Positions 23,752-38,226 of a DNA stretch of 64,000 bases are shown piece by piece. Source of the DNA: Sheuella sp. Lineage in GTDB: Bacteria; Pseudomonadota; Gammaproteobacteria; Burkholderiales; Burkholderiaceae_B. The stretch is taken from the NCBI GenBank assembly GCA_030650995.1, contig JAUSCY010000128.1:1-64000 (forward strand), written 5' to 3'. Within the stretch, counting starts at the first letter, position 1. The number at the start of each line of letters is the position of its first letter. The translations under genes were made by a program, and so were the position numbers. The notes beneath the pieces are model-generated. The model was not told where the DNA came from. It did no database searches and saw only the letters and a program-made list of their open reading frames with translations.

Positions 23752-24021
23752 CTAACGACGCTTGAGATAATGGATCGCACGGGCAGGCTCCTCTATTTGA
23801 GTCACCAGCTCATTACCGGTCTGCCGGCAAAAAGCCTGAAAATCCCGAATAGCACCGCGATCCGTGGTGATAACTTGCAGGATCTCACCTGACGTCATCA
23901 CAGCTAAGGCTTTTTTTGCACGCAAAATTGGTAATGGGCACGCCAACCCTGTAGCATCAACGTTATGCTGGTATTCGGGTGGCACGCTGTGCCCACTGAC
24001 AGAGACTTCAGCCACGGGCAT
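23752..24021 (-). CDS. TusA/SirA-family sulfur-transfer protein
   Basis: An 89-residue protein of the TusA family. The signature CPLP sits at residues 28-31 ([15 protein letters not shown]), with C28 as the likely persulfide carrier, followed by the conserved [23 protein letters not shown] core. Family members relay sulfur for tRNA thiolation, molybdopterin or sulfur oxidation; which one applies here is open. Its start overlaps the end of alaS by 14 bases, so it is probably cotranscribed and translationally coupled with alaS. Confidence 0.88.
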
Positions 24022-26644
24022 CGACCCAGCCAGCTACGCTGGTCAGAGCACCAGGCAAAGCAGCCAGGTCAGTTCCACCACCCATTGCCATGTCGGGGCG
24101 ACCACCGCCTTTACCACCTATCTGACCGGCAACAAAACCGACCAAATCGCCTGCTTTAACGCGACCCGCCAGATCGGCTGTCACACCACCCACGATACTG
24201 ATTTTGCCATCTGCAGAACGTGCCGCCAGCAGCACTACGGCAGACTTTAGATGATCTTTGAGCTGATCGACCATTGAGCGCAGATCTTTTGGATCCACAC
24301 CCTGCACTTCTGTCACCAGAAGTTTAAAACCCGCAGCCGAAGTCAAGGCTTTATCCGTCAGGGCATTACCAGCACTGGAGGCCAGCTTGGCACGCGCTTG
24401 CTCGAGTTCTTTTTCGAGTGCTTTCATCTGCTCTTGCATGAGCCCAATACGCTCAGGCAGCTCTGCAAGCTGAGTTTTCAAGGCTGCAGCCGCGCGTTGC
24501 GCAGTGGCATTCAAGTTTTGTACCCAGGCCAGGGCATTCGCACCGGTCACAGCCTCAATGCGTCGTACACCTGCGGCAACGCCACCTTCGGAAGTGACTT
24601 TAAAAAGACCGATATCACCCGTGCGACTGACATGGGTTCCACCGCATAATTCACGCGAAAAACCGATATCCAGAACGCGGACTGTATCGCCGTATTTTTC
24701 TCCAAACAGTGCCATTGCCCCACCCTCGACAGCATCATCGTAGGACATGACCTGCGCCTGTGCCGGCTGGTTGGAAAGAATCTGGGCACAAACGATTTGT
24801 TCAACGCGCGCGATTTCCTCATCAGACAAAGGCGCATCATGCGCAAAGTCAAAGCGGGTCTTATCGCCATCAACAAGCGAACCGCGCTGCTGAACGTGAG
24901 AACCCAGCACCTCGCGCAGAGCTTTATGCATCAGATGGGTAGCAGAGTGATTGCGGATCGTACGTGCACGCTGTTCGGCATCGACACGCGCACTCACCTC
25001 ATCGCCCACGAATAACTGACCTGCCTCAAGCTTGCCATGATGTCCAAACACACCCGGTTGGATTTTCTGAGTATCCAGTACTTTAAAACTCGATTTTTTA
25101 CCGGCGAGCTCACCCGTATCTCCAACCTGACCACCTGACTCTGCATAGAAAGGGGTGGCATCAAGCACAACAATAGCGTCCTGACCAGAGGACACGTGTT
25201 CGACAGCAGAGCCACCGACATAGAGCGCAACAACTTTGCCGGCAGATTGCAGATGCTCATAGCCTTCAAAGACCGTTTGAGCACCTGAGTATGTCAGACC
25301 CTCGACCATTTTGAATTTACCGGAGGCACGCGCCTGATCACGCTGACGCGTCATGGCCACATCAAAACCAGCAAGATCGACTTCAACATTGCGCTCGCGG
25401 CAAATGTCGGCAGTCAGGTCGACCGGAAACCCATAGGTGTCATACAACGTAAATAGGGTATTTCCATCTAATGTCACCTGCGCATCAGCACTGGCAGCAG
25501 GCAATGCGGCCAAAGCAACATCAAGGATTTTCATGCCGTGTTCGAGGGTTTCAACAAAACGCTCTTCTTCCTGACGCAGCACTTGCTCAACGCGGCTGGC
25601 AGTTTTCACTAACTCGGGATATGCGTCACCCATTTCCTTGACCAGATCTGCGACCAGGCGAAAGAAAAATGGTTTGGTTTGACCGAGTTTGTAGCCCTGG
25701 CGCAACGCGCGACGAATAATGCGGCGCAATACGTAGCCGCGTCCCTCATTACTCGGGATGACGCCATCAACGATCAGAAAACTGCAAGCACGAATGTGGT
25801 CGGCGATCACCTTGAGCGAGTTATGCGTGAGATCTTTACAACCCGTCTCACGCGCCGCAGCTGCGATCAATGCGACAAACAGATCGATTTCATAATTCGA
25901 ATGCACATGCTGGAGCACGGCAGCAATACGCTCTAGCCCCATACCTGTATCAACACAGGGTTTTGGCAAGGGTGTCATATTGCCTGCAGCGTCACGCTCG
26001 AACTGCATGAACACAAGATTCCAGATCTCTATATAACGATCGCCGTCCTCCTCGGGCGAGCCTGGCGGCCCTCCCCAGATCTCTGGGCCATGGTCATAAA
26101 AAATCTCCGTACACGGGCCGCAAGGGCCGGTATCACCCATTCGCCAGAAATTGTCCGACTCATAGCGACCACCTTTATTGTCACCAATGCGGATAATGCG
26201 CTCAGCAGGCACGCCAACCTCGTTTTCCCAGATCGCGTAAGCCTCGTCGTCTTCTTGATAAACCGTGACCCAGAGTTTCTCTTTGGGCAGGTTATAGACC
26301 TCCGTCAGCAAGGTCCATGCGAACCGGATCGCATCATGCTTGAAATAATCACCGAAACTGAAGTTACCCAGCATTTCAAAAAATGTGTGGTGACGCGCGG
26401 TATACCCAACATTTTCAAGGTCATTATGCTTACCACCCGCACGCACACTGCGCTGCGAGGATGTGGCCCGCGTATAAGCGCGTGTGTCCTTGCCGGTAAA
26501 GACGTCCTTGAACTGCACCATACCGGAGTTGGTAAACAACAAGGTCGGATCATTGCCAGGTACCAGCGATGACGACGACACAATGGTATGGCCTTGGGAC
26601 TGAAAATACTGCAGAAATTTTTGACGGATCTCGGAGGTTTTCAT
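24008..26644 (-). CDS. alaS: Alanyl-tRNA synthetase
   Basis: Class II synthetase charging tRNA-Ala and editing mischarged Ser/Gly. It has the N-terminal [20 protein letters not shown], the aminoacylation core, the editing-domain zinc ligands HSATH and CGGTH, and a C-terminal coiled coil and DHHA1 domain (about 700-878) ending in a Gly-rich stretch. The start is the ATG at 26644 (878 residues), the family start; an upstream extension to 26707 runs over the promoter. No Shine-Dalgarno is evident before it. Confidence 0.97.
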
Positions 26645-26713
26645 CGCGCGGCTAAGAAAAAAAAGGACTAAGAATCTGGGGACGAATAGAAGGATTCTAT
26701 TGGTCAATTGAGC

Positions 26714-26741
26714 ATTATAGGGGTTGGTTCAGCGCAGACAA
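26714..26741 (-). promoter_or_regulatory. alaS promoter inside the 3' end of pilV
   Basis: Minus-strand TATAAT (26714-26719, perfect -10) is preceded at 16 bp by TTGTCT (26736-26741, 4 of 6 to TTGACA). The -35 overlaps the last codons of pilV. Predicted transcripts start about 60 bases before the alaS ATG. Confidence 0.6.
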
Positions 26742-27802
26742 ATATAGGTACGGAATTCATCGATGTCGGATGTCTCACCTTTCCAGCGAGAAATTTGCAC
26801 AGGATTGAAGTCTGGGGGACAAAAACATCCACCAGTCAGGGGATTTAGCAGCGACGCGCGAAACCCTACCTCGCCACAACCGTGCATACTGTGCCATGAA
26901 TAGACTCCCCCAAACCGGGTCCCAGGACTGCGCCAGCGCCCGTCATGGCAAGTGAGCAGCTCACTTTCGGCATTTCGGGCAACCAGGCCATCGGCCTGAC
27001 AAGGCTGCTGAGCTATTGCAAGGCCCTGCAAATGTAAAAACTCCCCAGCAGAAATGCGTCCCGAAGATTGCAGGCCGCCTGAGGTGTGAATGTCGGCTTC
27101 AGAAATAATCCCTTTTTTAACGTTCAGCTGCCCATCGAGTCGTGTGTCTCTGCGATCCTCGCGCCTGACCAGATGTCCAAACTTACTTGAATCATAAAAA
27201 CTTTTTATAACAATGCTCCCTGCCGGCAAAGGAACTCTTTGCTTTTCGTGGGAATTGGGGATATCGAGATTCGGACCTGTGATGCGGTCTGCCCTAAGCG
27301 GATGCACACTCCCCCCAACCCCCTGCAATGCAGCCAGGATTTTACCAATGCGTGTAATGTCACTGGCCTGCGGCTGCTGAGCGGGAAGCGGGCTGGCATA
27401 AGTCAGCGCTTCGATCCGGCACCCCATTTTTTCGCAGTCACCCTCCGGAGCCGAAACCGCAATCGAGACGAGATATGGAATCGGTGGCTTGTCAGCAAAA
27501 CCCTTTGGTAAATGTCCGGCCCTCACCAGCTCAGTAATCGTTGGTTGATACAAATCGGTATATTGCGCAGCACCTGACAAATCAACCGTCATACCTGTCA
27601 TAAAGTCGGATTGACGCCTGAGCATTTGATTCATTGCGCCATGCACGGTCAGCATCCAGGCGCCAGTTGCCTGAGCCAGCGCATCATCAACATGCCTCAT
27701 CCAGACCGAAGCCGCCCACGTCGCAACCATGCCTGCCAATGCGATCGTCAACACCAACTCAAACATCGCAAACCCGCGCGCAACATATCTGATTTGCGTC
27801 AT
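26729..27802 (-). CDS. pilV: PilV-like shufflon-type minor pilin / tip adhesin
   Basis: A 357-residue prepilin-like protein with a short leader (MTQIRYVARG) and a class III cleavage site G|FAMFE, then a hydrophobic helix. The C-terminal third resembles the junction of shufflon PilV proteins: GLVARNAESELLTC, then GRWRSP, then a Cys-rich cassette with PLTGGCFCPPDFNP. In plasmid R64 the PilV C-terminus selects recipients by binding lipopolysaccharide; an adhesin role is inferred here. The start at 27802 is chosen because AGGTGA precedes it, 5 bases after the pilS stop. Last gene of the pilus set. Confidence 0.72.
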   Translation of the reverse strand: MTQIRYVARGFAMFELVLTIALAGMVATWAASVWMRHVDDALAQATGAWMLTVHGAMNQMLRRQSDFMTGMTVDLSGAAQYTDLYQPTITELVRAGHLPKGFADKPPIPYLVSIAVSAPEGDCEKMGCRIEALTYASPLPAQQPQASDITRIGKILAALQGVGGSVHPLRADRITGPNLDIPNSHEKQRVPLPAGSIVIKSFYDSSKFGHLVRREDRRDTRLDGQLNVKKGIISEADIHTSGGLQSSGRISAGEFLHLQGLAIAQQPCQADGLVARNAESELLTCHDGRWRSPGTRFGGVYSWHSMHGCGEVGFRASLLNPLTGGCFCPPDFNPVQISRWKGETSDIDEFRTYICLR

Positions 27803-27806
27803 GCGA

Positions 27807-28463
27807 TCACCTGATCGTAAAAACAAAAGTATTACGATCGCCCTGCGCGCACTGCGCATCAGCCAGAATAGCGTTATAGGGCATCACGGGTTCTATCATC
27901 GAGTTTTTAACCAGCACAGGCCCTGACTGTCCGGAAATAGTCACGGTTTCGGCAAGCCGTTGCAAAATTGAAGCCAGTCCCGGACATGCAGCATGATTGA
28001 CATCGTTAAGTGTCAACGAAAATGCAGCCCCGCTCGCTGCACCTGAAAGAAAAGCCGGCGCAATCAGAATCACGCCTCGCCCGTTACTGCCGCTCCCACC
28101 CAGCCCGTGGGCGACCGTTGCGGCAGATCCCACGCCTTTGACTGACACGACGCTGGAAGATCGCAAAGCGTTTACGAGCGTCCCCGTATCCACACCGGCA
28201 TAAGGTGACGCGCCGAAACCATGCGTACTAGCTTTCAGACGGGCAACAAAACGCTGCACTTCTTCAGCGACTCGAGGAACTTTACTTTCAATCACATAGC
28301 CTTGGATTGCCGGTATTCCAACGATAGCGATCAGCATCATGATTGTCGTCACGATCGATATTTCAATCAAAGAAAATCCTGACTGCATACGCCGCATATA
28401 CGCGGCATGCTCACCATAAAAATCATAAATAATCTGCTGATGCGCACACAGATGACATTGCAT
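27807..28463 (-). CDS. pilS: Type IVb major prepilin, PilS-like
   Basis: Major pilin candidate of 218 residues. The leader is 29 residues long and ends QSG, with cleavage G29|F30 and the conserved glutamate in FSLIE, followed by a long hydrophobic helix. Two cysteines near the end (HAACPG, DAQCAQ) fit the pilin disulfide loop. Long leaders mark type IVb pilins. The start at 28463 is supported by AAGGAG 6 bases upstream; inner ATGs at 28397 and 28388 lack one. Processing needs a prepilin peptidase that is not encoded in this window. Confidence 0.8.
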   Translation of the reverse strand: MQCHLCAHQQIIYDFYGEHAAYMRRMQSGFSLIEISIVTTIMMLIAIVGIPAIQGYVIESKVPRVAEEVQRFVARLKASTHGFGASPYAGVDTGTLVNALRSSSVVSVKGVGSAATVAHGLGGSGSNGRGVILIAPAFLSGAASGAAFSLTLNDVNHAACPGLASILQRLAETVTISGQSGPVLVKNSMIEPVMPYNAILADAQCAQGDRNTFVFTIR

Positions 28464-28478
28464 GAAAATCTCCTTAAC

Positions 28479-29621
28479 TTAATTGGCGTAATAAAGACTT
28501 AAGCCTTGACGCAATTCTTCGAACACCCTGAAGTGCCAGAAAGCGATACCCAGAACAATCGATACCGAACACAGCAGTAATAGCCAGCGAATCATCACCG
28601 CCTGCCTGGCAAGCTTGCCGACCGTATGCGCAGAGAGTCGTTCGCACGTTCGCTGAAGACCTGCATCGAGTCCAAGCGTGTGAACCATGTCAACGAAATA
28701 CCACCAGGTCTGCTCATCAACCAATCCTGTATCAAGAGCATCGACCGCCTCGAAACCCGCATCAATACGTAACAACATCGTGTCGACATGCAAGCCCATC
28801 CAGCGCGAAGCACCTGAGCGTTGAATCCTGAGTGCTTCTCTGAGACGAGCGCCAACGTTGCCCCTGGGCTGAAGTAACACCGCGAGCAGAGATAAAAATC
28901 TGATGGCCTGAACGATGCGATAAAGCCGCCAGAGTCCCCAGCGATCGAGAAAAACCCTGAGTGAACCAGTCAAATTGGGCAAGGACCACACGCACGTCCA
29001 CAGGCTAGAAATGATGAAAATGACGAGCAACCACCAATAAAGATGCAGCACATCGCTTATGCGAAAAAAAGATAAGGTCACAGGGCCAAAATATTCAGCT
29101 GGCAAAGCTGAAAAGGCCTGTGCAAGGCGCTGCGCGGTAAAAAATGGAATCAACAGGACTGCCGTCACCGCTACAAGCAAACTCAGTACGCCTGTGAGGA
29201 TGGTTTGAAAAAACGCCTGACGCGCGGTATCCGTCACGCGAACGACGCCAGACAATTGATGTAAGGTTTGTATGAGTGCTCCTGCTCCAGCGTACTGGGC
29301 AGCCTGGATTGCCACTAAATCTTCAACGGGTAGCGAGCCATGCCAAGTTGAAAATAAATCACCACCTGTCTTCGGAAAACGTAATGCCCAGTGACGACTC
29401 AGTAATCCACGCACGCTTGCAGACGCATAGCGACGCGCATCATCCTGAAAAATATTAAGAAGCGTTTTGGTTCCAGCCGTAGCGCTGATCAAGTCCGCTA
29501 AATAATCGTAATAATCAGCACGATGCTCTTTAAATTGCCAGGCTGCGAATTTAAGCCGGACATGCGTCAAAGTATTGAACAGCCAAGGCAGCGGTGTATT
29601 CCAGGAAAACCAATCAAACAC
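28479..29621 (-). CDS. pilR: Type IVb pilus inner-membrane platform protein, PilR-like (GspF family)
   Basis: A 380-residue polytopic protein of the GspF/PilC type, the cytoplasmic-membrane platform on which the assembly ATPase works. Hydrophobic segments lie at about 155-176 (GVLSLLVAVTAVLLIPFF), 200-220 and near the C-terminus (about 340-362, MIRWLLLLCSVSIVLGIAF), matching the usual three-helix layout of two repeated domains. It starts with GTG and overlaps the ATPase gene by 8 bases. Assigned from topology plus position between an ATPase and a prepilin gene. Confidence 0.8.
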   Translation of the reverse strand: MFDWFSWNTPLPWLFNTLTHVRLKFAAWQFKEHRADYYDYLADLISATAGTKTLLNIFQDDARRYASASVRGLLSRHWALRFPKTGGDLFSTWHGSLPVEDLVAIQAAQYAGAGALIQTLHQLSGVVRVTDTARQAFFQTILTGVLSLLVAVTAVLLIPFFTAQRLAQAFSALPAEYFGPVTLSFFRISDVLHLYWWLLVIFIISSLWTCVWSLPNLTGSLRVFLDRWGLWRLYRIVQAIRFLSLLAVLLQPRGNVGARLREALRIQRSGASRWMGLHVDTMLLRIDAGFEAVDALDTGLVDEQTWWYFVDMVHTLGLDAGLQRTCERLSAHTVGKLARQAVMIRWLLLLCSVSIVLGIAFWHFRVFEELRQGLSLYYAN

Positions 29622-31356
29622 GAGGACGATTCCGATACATCACCGACTGAAAAATACCGAATCTTGACTCTACTTGCCTGGGATCAACTAATCCCTGCGA
29701 CATTTTATAAACAGCCACCTGCATTGCTGTTTTTCCGGTCATATCGGAGTCTGAAAGAGTCGTGCAGGCACGCGAATGAAACCAGTCATACAACCAGAGA
29801 CCATCTTGTCGTTTGAGACCATCGAGAAAGTCAGGCTCAGCGACTGGCTCAATCATTTCTGCAACTACAGTGCGGCCATACGTCCCATTCAAGGAAGAAA
29901 CTGGCGAGGACTGACACTGCTGACAACCGGTTTCATTACGAAAACGAAAACCTTCAGCAGATACGCCAAGGTGCGTCTCGATCGTTTGCAACCATTGCTT
30001 AAACCATCTGATATCCCGCGCAATACCATTGGCACAGATCCATCTGCCAAGATGGATGACCTGCCGGACATCCTGGGCACAATGCACGCATAAACGGGCT
30101 ATCAGACACTGATAAACAAGCAGTTTTAAAATACCGGGAGTAGACAATAAGTCACGTGCAACACCGATGAAGCTTGAAGCCAGCCGATCGGAAATCAACA
30201 AAGCCGAACCTGCATGAACAGTTGTATAAAGATTAACGCCGCAGCCAGCAAGATCCATGAAAGCCCGACCTCCTGCCGTATCGCGGATTTCCCCGATAAG
30301 CAGATCATTCATTGCCGAACGTTTAATTGTTTTCAGTTTTGTATCAAAGGATTCGCCATCGCTCTCATCCAGCGTACGACAAATCGTATTTTGTAACGCG
30401 TTGGGAATAAGATATTCGGCAGGATCCTCAAGCGTAATGACCTTACGATCTGAAGGAATTTCCCGCATGAGCGTGGCAATCGTAGTGGACTTACCCGAAC
30501 CCACCACCCCGGCGAGAATCACGGCACCACCTGCTTGAGAACGAGCGCGATGCAGCGCCTGAACTTGTGAGTTCAAATACCCTAAAGCATGCAGATCAGG
30601 AGTCAAACTATCCTGATCTGTCACCAGCACTCTCAAACACACAGAGGGTCCGGCATCTGTAGCTAGAGATGCCCAGCGCAACATGACGTAACGATCATCG
30701 AGCCATAGGCCAAGTCGCCCTTGTTGTTCAATCATCGGATCAAACACCGCACCATTTCCACCCTGCACACCCATCCATGCAACAGCCAGCATTTCCAGAA
30801 GTGTTGCGGTTGGGATCTGCCTATAGCGCTCAGGGCAAACATAGCGACCAGCAATCGTAAAATACACAGAAGACTGGACACGCGTGCGCTGCACGTTGAG
30901 GTGTATATCACTCGCACCATGTGCAAGTCCCCAGGCCACCATATCATTGAAAGCCGAGGAATGTGCTGAGTCCTCCGATACTGAGGCGCGCTGTGAACCT
31001 GAACCATCACGCTGCGTGGACGTGAGCATACGATCAATCGAAACCATGAGTGCCGGCGTCAAGACAAACAGACTCGGCTCGTTTAATCTGAATCCTCTGT
31101 TCTGCAACAATTCAAGTAACGCCAGTGTCTGATCATCATGGCAATAATCAGACAATACAAAAATACCTGCGCTACCGTCTTCGAATGTGACAGGACATAT
31201 CCGGCCATTCAATGTGGCAACATCGAGCTCATCACACAGAGACCTTCGAAATGCGGGACGCATGGTTAATAGTTCGTCAGGGGACTGTATGACCCGGTGC
31301 GCGCGCACACTCCAAGGACGAATAACTGGTGTGCGTTCATTAAAGGTAAGTTTCAT
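29614..31356 (-). CDS. pilQ: Type IVb pilus assembly ATPase, PilQ-like (GspE family)
   Basis: Secretion-type ATPase of 580 residues that powers pilin polymerisation. Motifs seen: Walker A GVVGSGKST (283-291), Asp box ITLEDPAEY (307-315), Walker B LLIGEIRD (352-359), His box TVHAGSA (379-385) and a zinc-type tetracysteine (C423, C426, C478, C481). The start is the ATG overlapping the preceding stop (ATGA); a TTG 7 codons earlier is less likely. No second ATPase (PilT-type retraction motor) is present in the cluster, as in R64-like systems. Confidence 0.88.
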   Translation of the reverse strand: MKLTFNERTPVIRPWSVRAHRVIQSPDELLTMRPAFRRSLCDELDVATLNGRICPVTFEDGSAGIFVLSDYCHDDQTLALLELLQNRGFRLNEPSLFVLTPALMVSIDRMLTSTQRDGSGSQRASVSEDSAHSSAFNDMVAWGLAHGASDIHLNVQRTRVQSSVYFTIAGRYVCPERYRQIPTATLLEMLAVAWMGVQGGNGAVFDPMIEQQGRLGLWLDDRYVMLRWASLATDAGPSVCLRVLVTDQDSLTPDLHALGYLNSQVQALHRARSQAGGAVILAGVVGSGKSTTIATLMREIPSDRKVITLEDPAEYLIPNALQNTICRTLDESDGESFDTKLKTIKRSAMNDLLIGEIRDTAGGRAFMDLAGCGVNLYTTVHAGSALLISDRLASSFIGVARDLLSTPGILKLLVYQCLIARLCVHCAQDVRQVIHLGRWICANGIARDIRWFKQWLQTIETHLGVSAEGFRFRNETGCQQCQSSPVSSLNGTYGRTVVAEMIEPVAEPDFLDGLKRQDGLWLYDWFHSRACTTLSDSDMTGKTAMQVAVYKMSQGLVDPRQVESRFGIFQSVMYRNRPRV

Positions 31357-31811
31357 GGTGCAGATATTTCCAGGCAAGTGATCTCTTGCGACTGATCTTT
31401 AGTTAAATAAATACAAGGCGGCGTGATACGTTCAAGGCCGTAACCATTAGCGATACCTGAAACAGGTTTTTTACCGGCTCCATAAAAAATCACGAGACGT
31501 CCGTCAATCAGCACCTCTGCGGACAAATTACGTCCCGTCCCATAAATAGCAACAAGTACAGGGCGATCACTGGAGGAAGCTGCACGGATCGAACCGGGAC
31601 TTGTTCCAAAGACCTGTCTTCTGGCTGTATCGAGCGCAGCACGTGATTCCAGCTGTAAAAGTTCCTCAACCGTTGTGAGCGCTGTGACGGGAATTTCGAT
31701 CTTCTGCTCCAAAGCAGCCATGGCGCAGGAAGGCGCTGCGCCTGCAATGCATAGCCATAGCCATAGCCATAGCGATTTATTTAACGGTCGATTAATGCAT
31801 ACGTGATTCAA
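31353..31811 (-). CDS. pilP: PilP-like periplasmic type IVb pilus protein
   Basis: A 152-residue exported protein. The signal peptide has an unusual core of repeated Leu-Trp (SLWLWLWL), encoded by a hexanucleotide repeat, with likely cleavage after AMA (about 33). The mature part (LEQKIEIPVTALTTVEELLQLES and a short beta-rich end) fits the small PilP family of R64-type pili; sequence support is moderate and the position between pilO and pilQ is decisive. It starts with TTG preceded by AGGGGA, overlaps pilO by 20 bases and overlaps pilQ by 4. Confidence 0.68.
   Translation of the reverse strand: MNHVCINRPLNKSLWLWLWLCIAGAAPSCAMAALEQKIEIPVTALTTVEELLQLESRAALDTARRQVFGTSPGSIRAASSSDRPVLVAIYGTGRNLSAEVLIDGRLVIFYGAGKKPVSGIANGYGLERITPPCIYLTKDQSQEITCLEISAP
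31751..31773. repeat. Hexanucleotide repeat in the pilP signal peptide
   Basis: Three perfect ATAGCC units plus a partial fourth (ATAGC), which on the coding strand read as repeated CTATGG (Leu-Trp). Gain or loss of a unit would keep the frame and change the length of the signal-peptide core by two residues. Confidence 0.9.
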
Positions 31812-33069
31812 ACATTTCCCCTACGAGTTCAAGAGTCAGGGCACTGCGATTCAGTGCTTGTGGAGCCTGTCGGTCAATACTCAGACTTAGTCTGCGCCAG
31901 CGCACTGGCATGTGTAGTCCATCCAGACTTTCAATCGCACGTAAGGGCCCTTTTACGACAAGCGTGCGCTGTTTCCAGTCTGGAAAAATATCGAGTTTGG
32001 GTAATGACTGTCCTTGTCGGTCAACAGGGGGCTTGACAGGCAGCAAGGCAGCCTGACCTATCTGGATATGCTCAAAAGCGATACCCACTTTCTGCAAATA
32101 ACTCATCCAGTCAACAACCATCCATTGCTCACTGAGGTCCAGCGTCTGACTCGCAGTGCTCACTTGCCAGAGGTATGCAGCCTCCTCTAGAGGTGAAAAC
32201 TCTGTTCTCCAACCCTCTGGCTTAAGTTGCTCAAGATGGGCGTTTAACGCCATGCGGTGCTGTCTGACGAAATGCGCTGCACAATCCCATTTCAGGACGC
32301 TCGATTCGCACTGGATTTTTCTCAAACGCCAGCCCATCGGCAATACAGGTATTTGCATCCAGGTCTGAATAACAGACTGGATCTGCGCGTAAGGGTGCCA
32401 GGTGTGTTGTGCAGACTGCTCGAGCAGGCTTTGACGCCATAGGGTCTCAGCATTTTCATGAACCGGATCAGACATCTCCTGACTGTCAAATAAAAAAAGA
32501 TATCCTGCTGTCGCCGGGATCAGAATGCAAAGAATCCGCTTGAACCACGTGATCCGATGAGCATGTGATAGCGGTACAGATTTTAAAATCGAGCTGTCTG
32601 ACAGTGTTGCCGTTAACCATGATGGGGCGCTCTGTGCAGGCTCCAGGGATTCCCGCTGCACCTGCAGTGCAGGAAATCTCAACCGGATTGATTCGAGTGC
32701 CTCGATCGCTTCTGACTCATCCACAAACCAGCGATCTGTATGTGAAAGTACAACCCCGGCGTGGCATACCAGCATCCAGCACGCCCCCTCCTTGATCGTA
32801 AGCAAACAAGCTTGTGCACCATGCGGAAATTTATTTGAAAAAATTGCTGCTGCTGAATGTGCAGGCATATTGGATTTGAGTTTCGCATTGTCAAGCCTGA
32901 CTGCCCCCACGGCGCAGCCATGGGAACTGCCGGCCAATACATAGTGGGTTGCATTGAGCTCTCGGGCGCGCTGCATACCGAGCTGTTCGGGCGCACCGCC
33001 AATCAGAGGAGACCAGTCCAGACCAAAAACAATTTGCTCTCCTGACGCATGCTGATGAATAAAATGCAT
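31792..33069 (-). CDS. pilO: PilO-like pilin accessory protein
   Basis: A 425-residue protein of the R64 PilO type (pilin accessory protein), unrelated to the small PilO of type IVa systems. The N-terminal part (about 1-175) is cytoplasmic with two related-looking halves. One membrane helix follows (about 178-194, RILCILIPATAGYLFLF), then a periplasmic domain with paired cysteines (IQCESSVLKWDCAAHF). It probably connects the inner-membrane platform with the secretin. It lies 4 bases after pilN and overlaps pilP. Confidence 0.72.
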   Translation of the reverse strand: MHFIHQHASGEQIVFGLDWSPLIGGAPEQLGMQRARELNATHYVLAGSSHGCAVGAVRLDNAKLKSNMPAHSAAAIFSNKFPHGAQACLLTIKEGACWMLVCHAGVVLSHTDRWFVDESEAIEALESIRLRFPALQVQRESLEPAQSAPSWLTATLSDSSILKSVPLSHAHRITWFKRILCILIPATAGYLFLFDSQEMSDPVHENAETLWRQSLLEQSAQHTWHPYAQIQSVIQTWMQIPVLPMGWRLRKIQCESSVLKWDCAAHFVRQHRMALNAHLEQLKPEGWRTEFSPLEEAAYLWQVSTASQTLDLSEQWMVVDWMSYLQKVGIAFEHIQIGQAALLPVKPPVDRQGQSLPKLDIFPDWKQRTLVVKGPLRAIESLDGLHMPVRWRRLSLSIDRQAPQALNRSALTLELVGEMFESRMH

Positions 33070-33073
33070 GACG

Positions 33074-34675
33074 TTAGAATCCGTCTTCGATCTGAGCGGT
33101 CACAATAATAAGCGTCGCGGTACGTGACTCGCCTGCCCTGTCCGCTCCACCCACGAGCAAAGGCATATCAGGTGCCAATCTCGTGCGTGAGGACTCTTCG
33201 TGCTTGCGGTCAAAGCCTGAAATCAGCATGGGCTGTCCTGCTTTGAGTGCGATCTGTTGGACAGTGCCATTGCCATCGATGCTGACCTGCTGAATCTGAA
33301 CGCTCTGACCCTGCTCGCCAAATGCGATTGTTTTAAGCGGCTGAGCAACCGTATTGTCATACGCAACTGAAAGCAGGATTTGCCCATCCTCCTGTGCATC
33401 GGGCATCAGTGTCAAAAAACTACCAACGGTTTCTTCTTTCTGACTAACCGTAGCGGACATTGATCCGTGTCCAGGCCGTAGAGGTCCTGAGGACTCTGGT
33501 GTGGACTTAATCTGATCAATATATGAAAAGGTTGTCCTGACCGCATGCGTCACAGGCCGCCGATTAAGGGTCAGGACAGGAATACTTGTATGTCTCAATA
33601 CGGTGCCATGTTTGGACAGGGCATTCAGAATGATTTGGCTGGACTGCGCGCTACGTGATCCGGCCTGAATCGACGCGCGTGCTGCGTCGACTCCCATGGC
33701 TAATACGGGAGTGGTCAGATTCGCAGCAATCGTGGCCTGACTGAGCACCGCATCCCAATCCAGACCGAATTCCAGATTTTCATTTGTCGCAATGGTAATT
33801 TCTTCAAATAACAATCTGACGCGCCGCGTCATCGCGCGATTTTCTCTTTCAACAAATCCGGCGATGGCATCCAAGGCCTCAGGCACGTCCGTCACGACAA
33901 CAGTCGTAGACGCACCCGGCTGAGCAGCGATGATTCCGGCACGCGTCAGAAAAGGTTCAATGCGTTGCCTGACAGCTTCCAGAGGGTGTTGTTCGGGACT
34001 ACTCAACGTAGTGCGCGATGTATTATCAAAGCCACCTGATTTATTACCGGGTGCGCGTCCAAGCTGCGCATCTGTCTGCGCTGAAAGTGAGAACACCCGA
34101 ACATCAAAAACGCGGGTCTGTGTCCGATAGAACTCAATCGCACCCTGGTGGTATCGCCAGTGGATTGAAAGTCTGCGCGCGATAGTATCCAGCACCTTGA
34201 GCAAAGGCTGCGGTCCGCGTCCTAGCTCGGCAAGGTGCGGCATGGCGACAACGGGTGTCTGCGAAATCAATGCAAGTCTGGGTAAGAAACTCTCTGCGGG
34301 TAGCAGTGACTCTGGTTTGATGCGTACAGGAATCCCTGTGGCACGAGTGATACGCTCTGAAAGTGTGACCAAGTCTGTTTTACCACCTCGATACATCATG
34401 GTGGTATCGACGTTTTTACGTAATGCTGACGGCAATGTCACCTCACGCGATACCGGCACGGACTTACTAACCAGCCAGGGTCGATTCACGCGCTGAGCGT
34501 TCGCGCGCGTCTCACGATGGGTCATTGACTGACGAAATCCATCTTGTTGGGCACGGACCTGTTCACCCGCCTGTTGTGCGGAAGCAAGGTTCTGACGCAT
34601 TTTCCCCATTAGCGAACATCCGCAGAGTGTGTTGAGGATCAGTAATAACGGGATGTATATCCACCGCATTGTCAT
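33074..34675 (-). CDS. pilN: Type IVb pilus secretin, PilN-like outer-membrane lipoprotein
   Basis: Outer-membrane channel through which the pilus passes. It has a lipoprotein signal with lipobox LCGC (C20), N-terminal secretin domains (for example ATGIPVRIKPESLL and RRLSIHWRYHQGAIEFY), a central repeat (AAQPGASTTVVVTDVPEALDAIAGFVE) and the C-terminal secretin barrel (GSFLTLMPDAQEDGQILL, PLLVGG). The 533 residues match R64 PilN. The ATG overlaps the preceding stop (ATGA). As a lipoprotein secretin it may not need a separate pilotin. Confidence 0.85.
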   Translation of the reverse strand: MTMRWIYIPLLLILNTLCGCSLMGKMRQNLASAQQAGEQVRAQQDGFRQSMTHRETRANAQRVNRPWLVSKSVPVSREVTLPSALRKNVDTTMMYRGGKTDLVTLSERITRATGIPVRIKPESLLPAESFLPRLALISQTPVVAMPHLAELGRGPQPLLKVLDTIARRLSIHWRYHQGAIEFYRTQTRVFDVRVFSLSAQTDAQLGRAPGNKSGGFDNTSRTTLSSPEQHPLEAVRQRIEPFLTRAGIIAAQPGASTTVVVTDVPEALDAIAGFVERENRAMTRRVRLLFEEITIATNENLEFGLDWDAVLSQATIAANLTTPVLAMGVDAARASIQAGSRSAQSSQIILNALSKHGTVLRHTSIPVLTLNRRPVTHAVRTTFSYIDQIKSTPESSGPLRPGHGSMSATVSQKEETVGSFLTLMPDAQEDGQILLSVAYDNTVAQPLKTIAFGEQGQSVQIQQVSIDGNGTVQQIALKAGQPMLISGFDRKHEESSRTRLAPDMPLLVGGADRAGESRTATLIIVTAQIEDGF

Positions 34676-35454
34676 ACCGGCGCTCCGGGTAAGATCGTAC
34701 GGTCACAAGGCTCAGAGGATGGCACTACACGCAGGACCTGATTGGTATAAAAACACGGTTGCAATGGGCGATCAGAGAGCTCGGTGGATAAAAGTAAAGC
34801 CTGGACTGAAGAGATAAAGTCATCCGAGAAACTCGCGCCCGCTGACAAGGGAATATCAACGTCCACCACCCAGTGCTCTGGTTGAAATCTCCACCCGCTG
34901 ATCCCGGTCCAGCGCGTAAGCGCCTGGCGCAGATTCTGATCCTCCGGAGTCACCGCAAACGCCATAGATGGTGCTTTAACGACAGAGGGGGACAAATCAC
35001 GTGAGGTAGTGTGCGATGTAGAGGAATGCACGACAGGCTCTGGCCTCATCGGCAGAGGTTGCATCGGCGCAGACTCTTGCAGCGAACGAACACGACGTGC
35101 CTGGGCTTGTTGACGTCCTGCGCGAAACGATAATCTGGACCAGTGTCCTTCAATGATCGTGTAGGGATCTTGTCGTCTGTAACTCAGTACCTGCTCTTGC
35201 CCGTCCTGGCTTGCGAGAATCGCCGGTATGGACTGATTGGGATGCCAGTGCAACCACGTATGGCTGTTATCCGAAAAGACCTGCAGAGGCGCAACAGTTC
35301 GATCTCCAGACAATTTCCAGTCGAAATCCAATCTTCCGTCAGGTATCTGTGCGTCATTTTTTGATGAATTAGAGTGAGCCAGTCTTGACTGCATTGCGCA
35401 CCCTTGGGTCAGCATCACAAAACAAAGCAGGCAACTTACGGGATTGAAATTCAT
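34672..35454 (-). CDS. pilL: PilL/TcpQ-like lipoprotein with VirB9-like N-terminal region
   Basis: First gene of the pilus cluster, 260 residues from the ATG used (a TTG at 35475 is possible). It has a signal peptide with lipoprotein-like LTQGC (C19). Residues about 40-115 (FDWKLSGD, PLQVFSDNSHTWLHW, VLSYRRQDPYTIIEGHW) resemble the VirB9/TrbG fold of type IV secretion. The C-terminal 90 residues (LRQALTRWTGISGWRF to NQVLRVV) resemble the TcpQ C-terminal domain of type IVb pili. TcpQ-type proteins help place the secretin. Both domain readings are by eye and need a profile search. Confidence 0.62.
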   Translation of the reverse strand: MNFNPVSCLLCFVMLTQGCAMQSRLAHSNSSKNDAQIPDGRLDFDWKLSGDRTVAPLQVFSDNSHTWLHWHPNQSIPAILASQDGQEQVLSYRRQDPYTIIEGHWSRLSFRAGRQQAQARRVRSLQESAPMQPLPMRPEPVVHSSTSHTTSRDLSPSVVKAPSMAFAVTPEDQNLRQALTRWTGISGWRFQPEHWVVDVDIPLSAGASFSDDFISSVQALLLSTELSDRPLQPCFYTNQVLRVVPSSEPCDRTILPGAPV

Positions 35455-35505
35455 TTCAGTGCAGCCATTTATCAAACAGCTGCAAGCTTGACGCTTTGGA
35501 CGTCA

Positions 35506-35596: not shown

Positions 35597-36934
35597 TTAT
35601 TTTTTCTTGGTTGTTGCAGGCGCTTTGGAAGGAACGCTTGGATCTTGCATCAAAGGCTTGGATTCGCTCATCGCAATATTCAAAGCCTGAACGGGTGGGG
35701 TCGTACCGTTCAGCGCAGCATCAAACTCGCGGCTCATGATGGACTCAACGCGCTGATAGTTCTTCACGCGAAAACCACGGCTGTTTTTGTGGTTCGCATC
35801 TTTTAAGCTGGCGATTACGTTACGCGCACCGGGGACCTTGTCATAAAACGCGACATCAGCTGTCCGATACGCAGCATCGGTCAAAGGCAAGAATCCTGTT
35901 TTCTGATGCCATGCTGATGCAACGACTGGTTTTGACAAGAAAGCCAGAAATAACATGGTGGCTTTGTTTTCTTCTTTGCTGTGACCTGAGGTCGCCCACA
36001 AAGCCGAACCACCGACAAAGGGGGTGCCGGGCTTTTCAGAAACTTGCTGATAATGAGGCAGCTGCGCCACACCAAACTTCAGACCGCGCGTGTCCAGGAA
36101 CTGACCCAGTACACCTGAGCCTGTCGTGACAACTGCACATTTGTTTTTCGCGAACATTTCATCGGCTTCATCGCCGTTGGTATGCTGCGTAAACAGATCT
36201 GAACGCTTCCAGCTCACCATGATCGATAGATGACGCATAAAGACTGAGTCAAAGTTCAGTTCAGGCTGCTGCTTGCCCGTGTCAAGACCATTATTGGGCG
36301 TAACCAGAAGCACATCATTGATCGGAGCGAGGTTTTCCAGATGGATACTGACCTGCTGGCTTGTGCCGTACGGACAGGTGTAGTCAGCCTTGTCGCGTAA
36401 TGCAATCAGATTGCCCTGAAGTTCGATCCAGGTAGCTGGTGGCTTGTTTGCATCGAGACCTGATTTTTTGTATCCATCAATGTTGTAAAACATCAGAGGG
36501 ATTTCAGCCATGAACGGGAATGCCAGCAATTGTTGTTTGCTGTTGCGCATAAAACCGGTTGTCTGGGGCAGAAACCAGTTCAGATCCGAGATCGGGTACT
36601 GTTTCAGAAGCTCATGCAAAGGCAGAATTTCTTTATGCATCGCAGTCAGCTCTGGTGAGCGGTCATCTTCAATCTGAACCAGATTGGGTTTGCGATTTTC
36701 TGCAATAGCCTTCTGACCTGCAGCACGCAGGGCAGCGCGATTAGGAAATCCCTTGACGTTAACTTTCGTCTCATTCTGCTCATTGTTGAATTGCTTGGCA
36801 AGCTTTTCAAACTCGTTCAGGTTGTAAGGGCTCAGCGTGAGCCAGACGTCAACCTCGACAGGGGCGGCTTGCGCCGTACAAACGGCAAAAAGCGCCGTAC
36901 CTAAAAATGTGGAAATTCGATTGAAATAAGACAA
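35597..36934 (-). CDS. Extracellular solute-binding protein family 1 (UgpB-like)
   Basis: Periplasmic binding protein of the sugar/glycerol-3-phosphate ABC class. The signal peptide ends AQA-AP (about 23), and the mature N-terminus VEVDVWLTLSPYNLNEFEKLAKQFN is typical of the family. The start is a TTG at 36934 with AAAAGGA upstream (445 residues); a longer frame to 37060 would intrude on dadA. It ends with a Lys/Pro-rich tail. No permease or ATPase gene for such a transporter is nearby, so it is an orphan component or a sensor. It starts 23 bases after dadA. Confidence 0.85.
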   Translation of the reverse strand: MSYFNRISTFLGTALFAVCTAQAAPVEVDVWLTLSPYNLNEFEKLAKQFNNEQNETKVNVKGFPNRAALRAAGQKAIAENRKPNLVQIEDDRSPELTAMHKEILPLHELLKQYPISDLNWFLPQTTGFMRNSKQQLLAFPFMAEIPLMFYNIDGYKKSGLDANKPPATWIELQGNLIALRDKADYTCPYGTSQQVSIHLENLAPINDVLLVTPNNGLDTGKQQPELNFDSVFMRHLSIMVSWKRSDLFTQHTNGDEADEMFAKNKCAVVTTGSGVLGQFLDTRGLKFGVAQLPHYQQVSEKPGTPFVGGSALWATSGHSKEENKATMLFLAFLSKPVVASAWHQKTGFLPLTDAAYRTADVAFYDKVPGARNVIASLKDANHKNSRGFRVKNYQRVESIMSREFDAALNGTTPPVQALNIAMSESKPLMQDPSVPSKAPATTKKK

Positions 36935-36957
36935 GCTGGTAGTCCTTTTAAAAAAAA

Positions 36958-38226
36958 TCAGGTGTTGACTGACTGACCTAAAAACGGAAACACGGGTTCT
37001 GGACGCAACCCGCTCATTAAATCTGCGAGTGCTCTGCCCGACCCTGCTCCCATCGTCCATCCAAGCGTGCCATGCCCGCTATTGACAAAAACATTGGCAA
37101 CGCGTGTGGCGCCGATCAACGGGACATTTGAGGGTGTTGAAGGACGCAAACCTGACCAGTATTGCACATGATCATAATCAAGTGCATCGGGAAAAAGCTC
37201 GCGTGCCTGCAAGAGCATTGCTTGACAGCGGGTTGGGTTTAACTCCCTGGAGTAACCGGAGAGCTCTGCAGTACCCGCCATGCGCAATGTGTCGCCCAAG
37301 CGAGTATAGACAACTTTATGGCTGCTATCGGTCAAACTGACGCTGGGTGCCGCCCCAGCGTTCAAAATAGGAAACGAGGCTGAATAGCCTTTTGTCGGAT
37401 AAATCGGGCAATGAACACCCAGAGGACGAAGTATCTGGGGAGTGAAACTACCCATCGCGACTACAAATGCGTCGGCTTTAAGATTCTCATAGTGTCCGTG
37501 CGCATCGATAACCTCAGCACTGACTGCACGCCCGCCTTCCTGAATAACTCGTGTGACTGACGTCGAAAATTTGAATTGCACCCCAGCCTGGGCGGCGAGC
37601 TTAGCTAATTGTTGTGTAAACAAGTAGGCATCGCCACTTTCGTCATCAACAGTAAAATCACCCCCGACAATTGAGTCTCTGACAGGTGCCAAAGCGGGTT
37701 CGATTGCGATGACTTCGTCGGCGGACACGACACGACGATCAACACCATAATCACGCATCACGTCGGCAGCCACCTGAGACGCATCAAATTCAGCGTGATC
37801 ACGATAAAAATTCAGGATGCCTTTAGTCTGCTGGTGATACTGGATACCTAACTCTTCACGCATCAGTTTGAGAGTGTCCCGGCTGTACTGCGCCATGCTC
37901 ACCATCGCCCGGATATTTATGGCCAAACGACTGGGAAGACATTCACGCAGGAATAGCGCGCCCCAAGCCCATTGCTGCCAGTCAAGCTGAGGACGAAACA
38001 GCAAGGGTGCATCGTCTTTGAACATCCACTTGAACAGTTTCAGAGGCGCCTGAGGATTTGCCCAGGGTTCGGCATAAGAAACGGAAATCTGTCCACCATT
38101 AGCAAAGCTTGTTTCCTGAGCGGGACCTGCGCAACGATCAACTACAACGACTTCGTGGCCCGCCTGACTGAGCCACCAGGCAGAAGAAATACCAATGATG
38201 CCACCACCTAGTACGATAATTTTCAT
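36958..38226 (-). CDS. dadA: D-amino acid dehydrogenase small subunit DadA
   Basis: FAD-dependent membrane-associated enzyme that oxidises D-amino acids (chiefly D-alanine) to 2-oxo acids and ammonia, feeding electrons to the respiratory chain. The N-terminus has the dinucleotide motif GGGIIG (7-12), followed by the DadA-type ETSFANGGQISVSYAEPWANP segment. The C-terminal GHGTLGWTMGAGSGRALADL motif is conserved. The 422 residues are full length. TGAGG lies upstream of the ATG. No racemase gene dadX accompanies it; a binding-protein gene does. Confidence 0.93.
   Translation of the reverse strand: MKIIVLGGGIIGISSAWWLSQAGHEVVVVDRCAGPAQETSFANGGQISVSYAEPWANPQAPLKLFKWMFKDDAPLLFRPQLDWQQWAWGALFLRECLPSRLAINIRAMVSMAQYSRDTLKLMREELGIQYHQQTKGILNFYRDHAEFDASQVAADVMRDYGVDRRVVSADEVIAIEPALAPVRDSIVGGDFTVDDESGDAYLFTQQLAKLAAQAGVQFKFSTSVTRVIQEGGRAVSAEVIDAHGHYENLKADAFVVAMGSFTPQILRPLGVHCPIYPTKGYSASFPILNAGAAPSVSLTDSSHKVVYTRLGDTLRMAGTAELSGYSRELNPTRCQAMLLQARELFPDALDYDHVQYWSGLRPSTPSNVPLIGATRVANVFVNSGHGTLGWTMGAGSGRALADLMSGLRPEPVFPFLGQSVNT

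Follow-up and report, generated by a model that had tools for sequence, protein, structure and literature searches.

The 64,000-nucleotide stretch of Sheuella sp. analysed here (assembly GCA_030650995.1, contig JAUSCY010000128.1, positions 1 to 64,000; referred to as the window) carries a compact pilus locus, pilL-N-O-P-Q-R-S-V, which is most probably a chromosomal R64-type (type IVb) pilus of the Alcaligenaceae that has been inherited at alaS since near the base of the family core. The product of its first gene, PilL, joins a VirB9 C-terminal-type domain to a TcpQ domain, and this VirB9-like half, which also occurs alone in relatives without the pilus, probably serves a separate function outside the pilus. 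The explanation as a whole, i.e., an ancestral pilus at the alaS site, a PilL ring on PilN and a VirB9-like half with a role outside the pilus, is one in which we place good, if not full, confidence.

The locus consists of eight tandem open reading frames on the minus strand (26729-35475 in the frame listing of the window), and the order pilL-N-O-P-Q-R-S-V given in the original prediction was borne out. The identities were assessed with Pfam and NCBIfam profiles and with hidden Markov models (HMMs) built from family members, which were run against 13 R64 proteins; the top match was the namesake in all eight cases, at E-values of 8.1e-5 or better in seven and at a weak 0.029 for PilP. The genes had been described as overlapping, which applies to five of the seven junctions, the remaining two being gaps of 4 and 15 bases. 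Similarly, the proposed cluster end at 35454 coincides with an in-frame ATG, the probable start of pilL, but the open frame of this gene extends to 35475. The type IVb outer membrane secretin PilN (33074-34675) matched TIGR02520 at 5.6e-48 (163.7 bits, below the cut-off of 287.65), and among PDB sequences a PilN profile (A2) identified BfpB (9u5s chain A) at 1.1e-30. PilQ (29614-31377), the assembly ATPase, matched T2SSE at 5.6e-37. The major pilin PilS (27807-28463) belongs to the PilS family according to PF08805 (5.8e-8, 33.3 bits against a cut-off of 22) and has the processing motif G/FSLIE, while PilV (26729-27859), the tip (shufflon-type) minor pilin with the motif G/FAMFE and its Glu5, scored 27.4 bits against a cut-off of 27.5 for Shufflon_N (PF04917, 3.1e-6) and 6.8e-24 with the family HMM against R64 PilV. 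PilO (31792-33069), PilP (31353-31811) and the inner membrane platform protein PilR (28479-29621) are too diverged for the profile libraries: neither PilO nor PilR gave a Pfam match of note, PilR matched TIGR02120 at 0.001, far under the cut-off, and the library match of PilP was limited to TIGR03021 (E 0.039). With the family HMMs, PilO matched R64 PilO at 2.1e-5 and PilO2 of the plasmid set pA82 at 4.6e-84, PilP matched R64 PilP at 0.029 and pA82 PilP at 4.6e-19, and PilR matched R64 PilR at 4.7e-26.

The profile scores also speak against an ordinary type II secretion or type IVa set, for which PilQ reached 101.4 bits against a cut-off of 617 (NF007755) and 77.5 bits against 675.65 for PilB. 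One feature of the pilin does not fit the type IVb assignment well, namely that residue +1 of PilS is Phe in 82 of the 90 loci with a motif hit. Phe at this position is a trait of type IVa pilins, while a residue other than Phe is expected in type IVb pilins; thus, the type IVb label rests on the gene set and order. The length of the PilS leader varies with the start codon chosen; a longer leader is described for type IVb pilins in the excerpted text of PMC5207764.

Distribution and synteny argue for inheritance at a fixed site. PilN matches at E<=1e-5 were found in 207 of the 268 family genomes, and at 1e-70 or better in 184 (own count). In a scan of species genomes covering 132 relatives, 80 loci were retained, including those of Sheuella, Zwartia, Jezberella, Bordetella, Achromobacter, Pollutimonas, Pusillimonas, Candidimonas and Castellaniella, and 67 of these possess all eight pil genes, without exception in the identical order. 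The adjoining upstream gene is sbp in 57 and the adjoining downstream gene alaS in 53 of the 67 loci, none of the searched neighbours being seen at the remaining 10 and 14 positions, respectively. Gaps of up to 1557 bases in the synteny table reflect HMM matches starting within the pilQ or pilV frame and not extra genes, and the 457-base gap between pilR and pilS in L129 lies to two thirds within the pilS frame. Within the length available, most of 22 family stretches read alaS-[pilV-S-R-Q-P-O-N-L]-sbp; sbp is missing in L057, alaS in L059 and both in L062, and several stretches are without dadA.

In the window, alaS (24008-26707) directly adjoins the cluster, as predicted, but on the other side sbp (35597-37060), encoding an extracellular solute-binding protein, intervenes before dadA (36958-38226), so that the block lies between alaS and sbp-dadA, all three genes being on the minus strand. 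The flanking genes are rpsP, tusA, alaS, sbp, dadA, fdr and parC, with no tra genes linked to the window locus; the proposal of a chromosomal, R64-type cluster was borne out. In the relatives of the same genus (L049-L053), dadA is missing between fdr and sbp, and sbp also remains in four stretches of genus g2 that are without the pilus.

A recent plasmid-derived insertion into the alaS-dadA interval would be suggested by the closest plasmid relatives, namely plasmids of Achromobacter that carry this gene set; the cousin clusters of Achromobacter and Variovorax plasmids share this compact set and lie beside conjugation genes. However, the best plasmid copies of PilN are only 42-43% identical, compared to up to 80% for relatives in other genomes, and the same site is occupied in much of the family. 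Neither a step in G+C content at the cluster nor a tRNA gene in the window was seen. Comparison of the alaS-dadA interval among relatives, which had been put forward as a check for an insertion, thus contradicts this idea, and we consider it very improbable.

As had been noted, pilM, pilT and pilU are absent from the cluster. No space between its genes is large enough for any of the three, and when R64 PilM, PilT and PilU were searched against the open frames of the family loci, no match was obtained at E<=1. On four plasmid stretches the same queries gave as sole match a PilT in the Cupriavidus stretch (1.9e-20), which shows that the PilT query works; in the Achromobacter and Variovorax stretches they found nothing at E<=1. 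The absence is therefore a trait shared by this branch, including its plasmid cousins beside conjugation genes, and not a fresh reduction, and the suggestion of a newly reduced set is not supported, as the same eight genes occur in the same order across much of the family. R64 Rci had a single match among the frames of the family loci, located in L242, which comes from a genome without the pilus, in a search that did not extend to invertible pilV ends.

The feature that sets the locus apart is PilL (34672-35475), whose VirB9-type half was not included in the earlier eight-gene reading. This lipoprotein-like protein of the window matches TcpQ at 6.5e-18 (65 bits against a cut-off of 27) with residues 172-251 (34723-34962), which places a TcpQ (N0-like) domain in its second half, and CagX/VirB9 (PF03524) at 1.7e-12 with residues 43-125 (35101-35349). 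The latter match covers profile positions 111-194 of 198 only and, thus, PilL is not a full VirB9/TrbG protein with N- and C-terminal domains (about 200 positions). Both domains (E<=0.01) are present in 22 of 22 chromosomal members of one alignment and in 76 of 76 of an overlapping second set, made up of the window plus 75 of the 80 loci; in the remaining five loci PilL was missing or cut at a contig end. The count of lipoboxes, 49 in these 76 proteins, was not used, as the chosen starts cut some leaders. When compared to PDB sequences, the first half of a PilL profile (A3) matched TrwF (7o3j_B, 2.5e-7) and VirB9 (0.003), and the second half matched 9u5s_R, the lipoprotein chain of the BfpB entry, at 4e-4, with a further weak match of the TcpQ part to 6gyb_a (0.068). 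Entry 9u5s holds 17 chains each of BfpB and of the lipoprotein, whose chain of 114 amino acids matches the TcpQ half alone; we take this chain to be BfpG and the entry to represent the bundle-forming pilus of enteropathogenic Escherichia coli (EPEC).

On plasmids, PilL has TcpQ only (five of five) and never the VirB9-type domain (none of five), and none of 65 plasmid records covers 80% of PilL. Outside the family, both domains were found and checked by Pfam in just two (G538 and G480) of 399 genomes of the order, with CagX under the cut-off in both; further partial matches occur in G344, G481 and G282. Among 369 genomes of the class, no genome besides that of the window had a PilL match past profile position 184 at E<=1e-12. 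Both G538 (L197) and G480 (L198) belong to family f21 and carry a full VirB9-type gene upstream of the two-domain PilL, in L198 with pilN-O-Q-R beside it, and it is possible that PilL of this family is the source of the fusion. On the Cupriavidus plasmid (L006), virB8-virB9-virB10 and lytic transglycosylase genes lie directly upstream of a TcpQ-PilN-type pilus set.

The VirB9-like half also occurs by itself. PilN is absent or matched only weakly in 84 family genomes, and 74 of these were searched with the PilL profile, the other ten being six of the 0.8-Mb genomes, three of genus g23, and G115. In 33 of the 74 (own count) the match ends before TcpQ, leaving a lone VirB9 half, to which G041 adds a second, longer match; among the rest, PilL is complete in 12 and split over two contigs in one, a further 14 show nothing but other VirB9- or TcpQ-type matches, and the last 14 gave no match at all. 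Three of the 33 were checked by Pfam and showed CagX without TcpQ, one over and two under the CagX cut-off. The lone-half proteins end shortly after the domain and, as judged by eye, 32 of 33 have a lipoprotein-like leader. Where alaS lies within the fetched stretch, it is within 160 bases of the lone half in 24 of 28 cases (measured between open-frame borders; one on the opposite strand) and 0.8 to 11 kb away in the other four. For five lone halves the fetched stretch does not contain alaS, two of them (G097 and G176) being cut by contig ends. In G098, G222 and G078 alaS is located elsewhere on the contig and in G101 it is 11 kb off, the frame of the lone half being intact in all four. The lone half is kept in seven of the eight searched genomes of g26 and in all seven of g40.

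Other partial states were observed as well. In genus g4 (L232/G057, L233/G054 and L267/G062), a half-lost cluster has kept full PilL, PilO and PilP; PilN is cut to about 210 residues in L232, PilO is not listed in L233, and neither of these two loci gave a match to PilQ, PilR, PilS or PilV, other genes occupying that place in L232. L247 of genus g28 (G183) has a full two-domain PilL, which is the sole pil gene within the 19.5 kb that were fetched; L266 (G180) resembles it, but lies at a contig end and cannot be judged.

The direction of these changes was addressed with trees of AlaS rooted on other families of the order, a quick one of 120 rows with 29 of the 33 lone-half genomes and a careful one of 46 chosen rows with 13 of the 33. 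In both, the first branch is the pilus-bearing G197 (support 99 in the quick and 100/99 in the careful tree). The lone-half state requires seven changes in the careful tree, six of which are forced by well-supported branches, with seven also obtained across the 5-95% range of the bootstrap trees, and eight changes, seven of them forced, in the quick tree. Most simply read, the pilus is old and was reduced at least six separate times, the same half being spared each time. The reverse has been considered, i.e., that the free lipoprotein is ancestral, that the pilus operon was inserted behind it with fusion of TcpQ, and that later losses restored the old state. Such a history would account for the retention of the VirB9 half and for its absence from plasmid PilL, and in an earlier midpoint-rooted tree the lone-half genera indeed stood at the base. 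With an outgroup, however, the first branch bears the pilus, the PilL HMM finds no such frame in the 1.5-kb alaS flanks of the five outgroup genomes, and the two genomes of another family mentioned above carry a two-domain PilL. We therefore regard an ancestral free lipoprotein as rather unlikely.

Selection on the lone half was estimated from ratios of nonsynonymous to synonymous substitution rates (dN/dS; Nei-Gojobori, measurable pairs only), which were below 1 in every measurable pair. For lone halves the values were 0.16-0.62 in g2 (21 of 21 pairs), 0.07-0.15 in g3 (five of six), 0.07 and 0.19 in g9 (two of three), 0.11-0.21 in g26 (seven of 21) and 0.51 and 0.55 in g40 (two of 21). In fused copies of g2, the VirB9 half gave 0.06-0.29 and the TcpQ half 0.02-0.10 (10 of 10 pairs each), and in those of the window's own genus 0.08-0.19 (four of 55 pairs) and 0.01 or less (two of 55), respectively. 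That a VirB9-like half is retained, and remains under purifying selection, in genomes missing the pilus points to a role outside the pilus. Alternatively, the lone proteins might be leftovers, slowly decaying stumps of pilus deletions that ended by chance in pilL. That pilL is the first gene of the operon would favour such an origin, as would the partial states of g4 and g28, but the frames stop shortly past the domain in genus after genus, the measurable pairs of g3, g9 and g26 have low dN/dS values (0.07-0.21), retention in g26 and g40 is nearly complete, and the frame is intact even far from alaS in G098, G101, G222 and G078. We judge decaying leftovers to be unlikely, although they retain appreciable weight.

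Several observations nevertheless weigh against an old pilus with a separately functioning VirB9-like half. The trees are based on a single gene, the outgroup does not form one clade, with G142, G157 and G215 of the same family falling among it, and the root fork of the 120-row tree is weak (support 66). Constraint is weaker in the lone halves of g2, whose values exceed those of the fused copies, and in g40, and the lone gene of G221 is an open frame without a leader; the latter points are also those expected of a leftover. Taken together, a VirB9-like half with its own role remains the probable reading. A more specific version, in which the VirB9-type lipoprotein is a conserved outer membrane component of the Alcaligenaceae with a pilus-independent role, serves as outer ring or pilotin of the secretin when fused to TcpQ, and persists after several independent losses of the pilus, appears to us evenly balanced between true and false.

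Since no prepilin peptidase is encoded in the cluster, it had been proposed that the system borrows one such as a housekeeping PilD, and this remains the best answer. The genome search for pilD, carried out on an assembly that is 91.4% complete in 151 contigs, so that absences are provisional and count as a reservation here, yielded two A24 peptidases, one in a tight adherence (Tad) locus (TadV) and one short PilD beside coaE-zapD (G000:C85:65797-66123), the sole non-Tad enzyme found. Besides PilQ, two T2SSE ATPases, both in Tad loci, exceed the family cut-off, and a fourth, weak match below it lies within a frame of 1313 codons; no GspE, PilB or PilT, i.e., no ATPase of type II secretion or retraction, was found in the assembled genome. 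The two Tad sets are located on G000:C46 (L069) and G000:C51 (L068), and the latter comprises CpaB, RcpA, TadA-like (with an FHA-like front part, by our own reading) and TadB/C genes, none of the listed frames encoding a pilin or a peptidase. A similar incomplete Tad set is reported for Kerstersia, in an account whose excerpted text lists pilD and Tad genes and no R64-type cluster (PMC6461280).

The coaE-linked PilD is most likely the enzyme that cuts PilS and PilV. Thirteen pilus-bearing genomes with one A24 match each were chosen, and in all of them the peptidase adjoins coaE-zapD. All 13 have an ATPase match like that of the second Tad set of the window's genome, the types being a reading of scores, and six have a GspE-type match (about 1e-148), which is absent from the other seven; of these, six have no ATPase other than PilQ and the Tad-like one above the cut-off, and G267 has one more of unclear type. 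It is conceivable that PilS is instead cut by the Tad peptidase and that the coaE-linked PilD acts for the second Tad set, which is without a pilin, or for no system at all. TadV is present in the window's genome, the match resembling the second Tad set recurs in all 13 single-peptidase genomes, and PilD persists without the pilus: of 18 chosen genomes that do not have the full cluster, 15 retain a coaE-linked peptidase. This retention speaks against our assignment inasmuch as PilD is not tied to the R64-type pilus, and a link through co-loss is not supported. Against a role of the Tad peptidase stand the 13 genomes in which the coaE-linked enzyme is the only one, seven of them without a GspE-type match and six of these with just PilQ and the Tad-like ATPase; processing by the Tad enzyme therefore seems improbable, with a modest residual chance. 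Loss of the PilD methylase domain as a mark of genomes without type II secretion proved inconsistent: A24_N_bact is absent from the PilD of the window's genome and of G125, and present in G106, which has no GspE-type match.

From gene content, synteny, domains, distribution, the tree and dN/dS, a model of rings, processing, retraction and function might be proposed. The coaE-linked PilD would process PilS and PilV, and assembly would be driven from the inner membrane by PilQ together with PilR. PilV, with its Glu5 motif, may initiate the fibre and sit at its tip, and the PilN secretin would form the exit gate. By analogy to the complex of BfpB and its lipoprotein, a PilL ring could be bound to PilN via the TcpQ domain, while the lipid of PilL may anchor an outer ring of VirB9-C-terminal-type domains in the outer membrane. 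As a search for a retraction ATPase found none, any retraction that occurs would be expected to resemble that by TcpB; according to the excerpted text of PMC5207764, the Vibrio toxin-coregulated pilus (TCP) retracts without an ATPase by means of the minor pilin TcpB and its Glu5. The pilus would likely be used in adhesion or aggregation.

The pilus itself is of a known kind. What the analysis adds is that a chromosomal R64-type pilus is a common inheritance of much of the family, including Bordetella and Achromobacter, at a fixed site, and that PilL naturally combines a core domain of type IV secretion with a partner of a pilus secretin; if the model is true, PilL-PilN would represent a hybrid of a conjugation core complex and a pilus gate. 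As the same half-protein survives apparently independent losses, the role of a lone VirB9-type outer membrane protein is directly testable. A literature search found no paper joining TcpQ with VirB9 or BfpG with VirB9. In the portions covered of the literature on VirB9, PilL and type IV pilus secretins, neither the fusion nor the lone lipoprotein was found, and no paper describing a chromosomal R64-type locus was found in those on Bordetella and Alcaligenaceae pili.

Among known systems, the R64 thin pilus (IncI1 pilL-V) is the closest in layout, with the same order L-N-O-P-Q-R-S-V and namesakes one to one; it differs in that the window locus is chromosomal, is without pilM, pilT, pilU, rci and tra genes, and encodes a PilL with a VirB9-type domain. 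The plasmid set pA82 likewise is without pilM, pilT and pilU. The EPEC bundle-forming pilus (9u5s) resembles the locus in its secretin, BfpB, and in the lipoprotein chain related to the TcpQ half of PilL, but this chain matches no part of PilL beyond that half. As far as the excerpt of PMC5207764 reaches, Vibrio TCP with TcpB is similar in being a type IVb system without a retraction ATPase and with one Glu5 minor pilin, a likeness of composition and not of compared sequences. According to the excerpted text of PMC3093366, VirB7 of Xanthomonas has an N0 domain and VirB9 as partner, so that an N0-type domain is likewise joined to a VirB7/VirB9 outer ring, a likeness to which the weak match of the TcpQ part to 6gyb_a also belongs; there, however, VirB7 and VirB9 are separate proteins of type IV secretion, whereas in PilL, part of a pilus system, the N0-like domain and a VirB9 C-terminal-type domain form one fused protein. 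Similarly, the Tad secretin RcpA, as described in the excerpt of PMC10499894, brings a VirB9-type domain into the outer membrane complex of a pilus, but there it is the N-terminal-like domain and resides within the secretin, whereas PilL carries the C-terminal domain in a lipoprotein.

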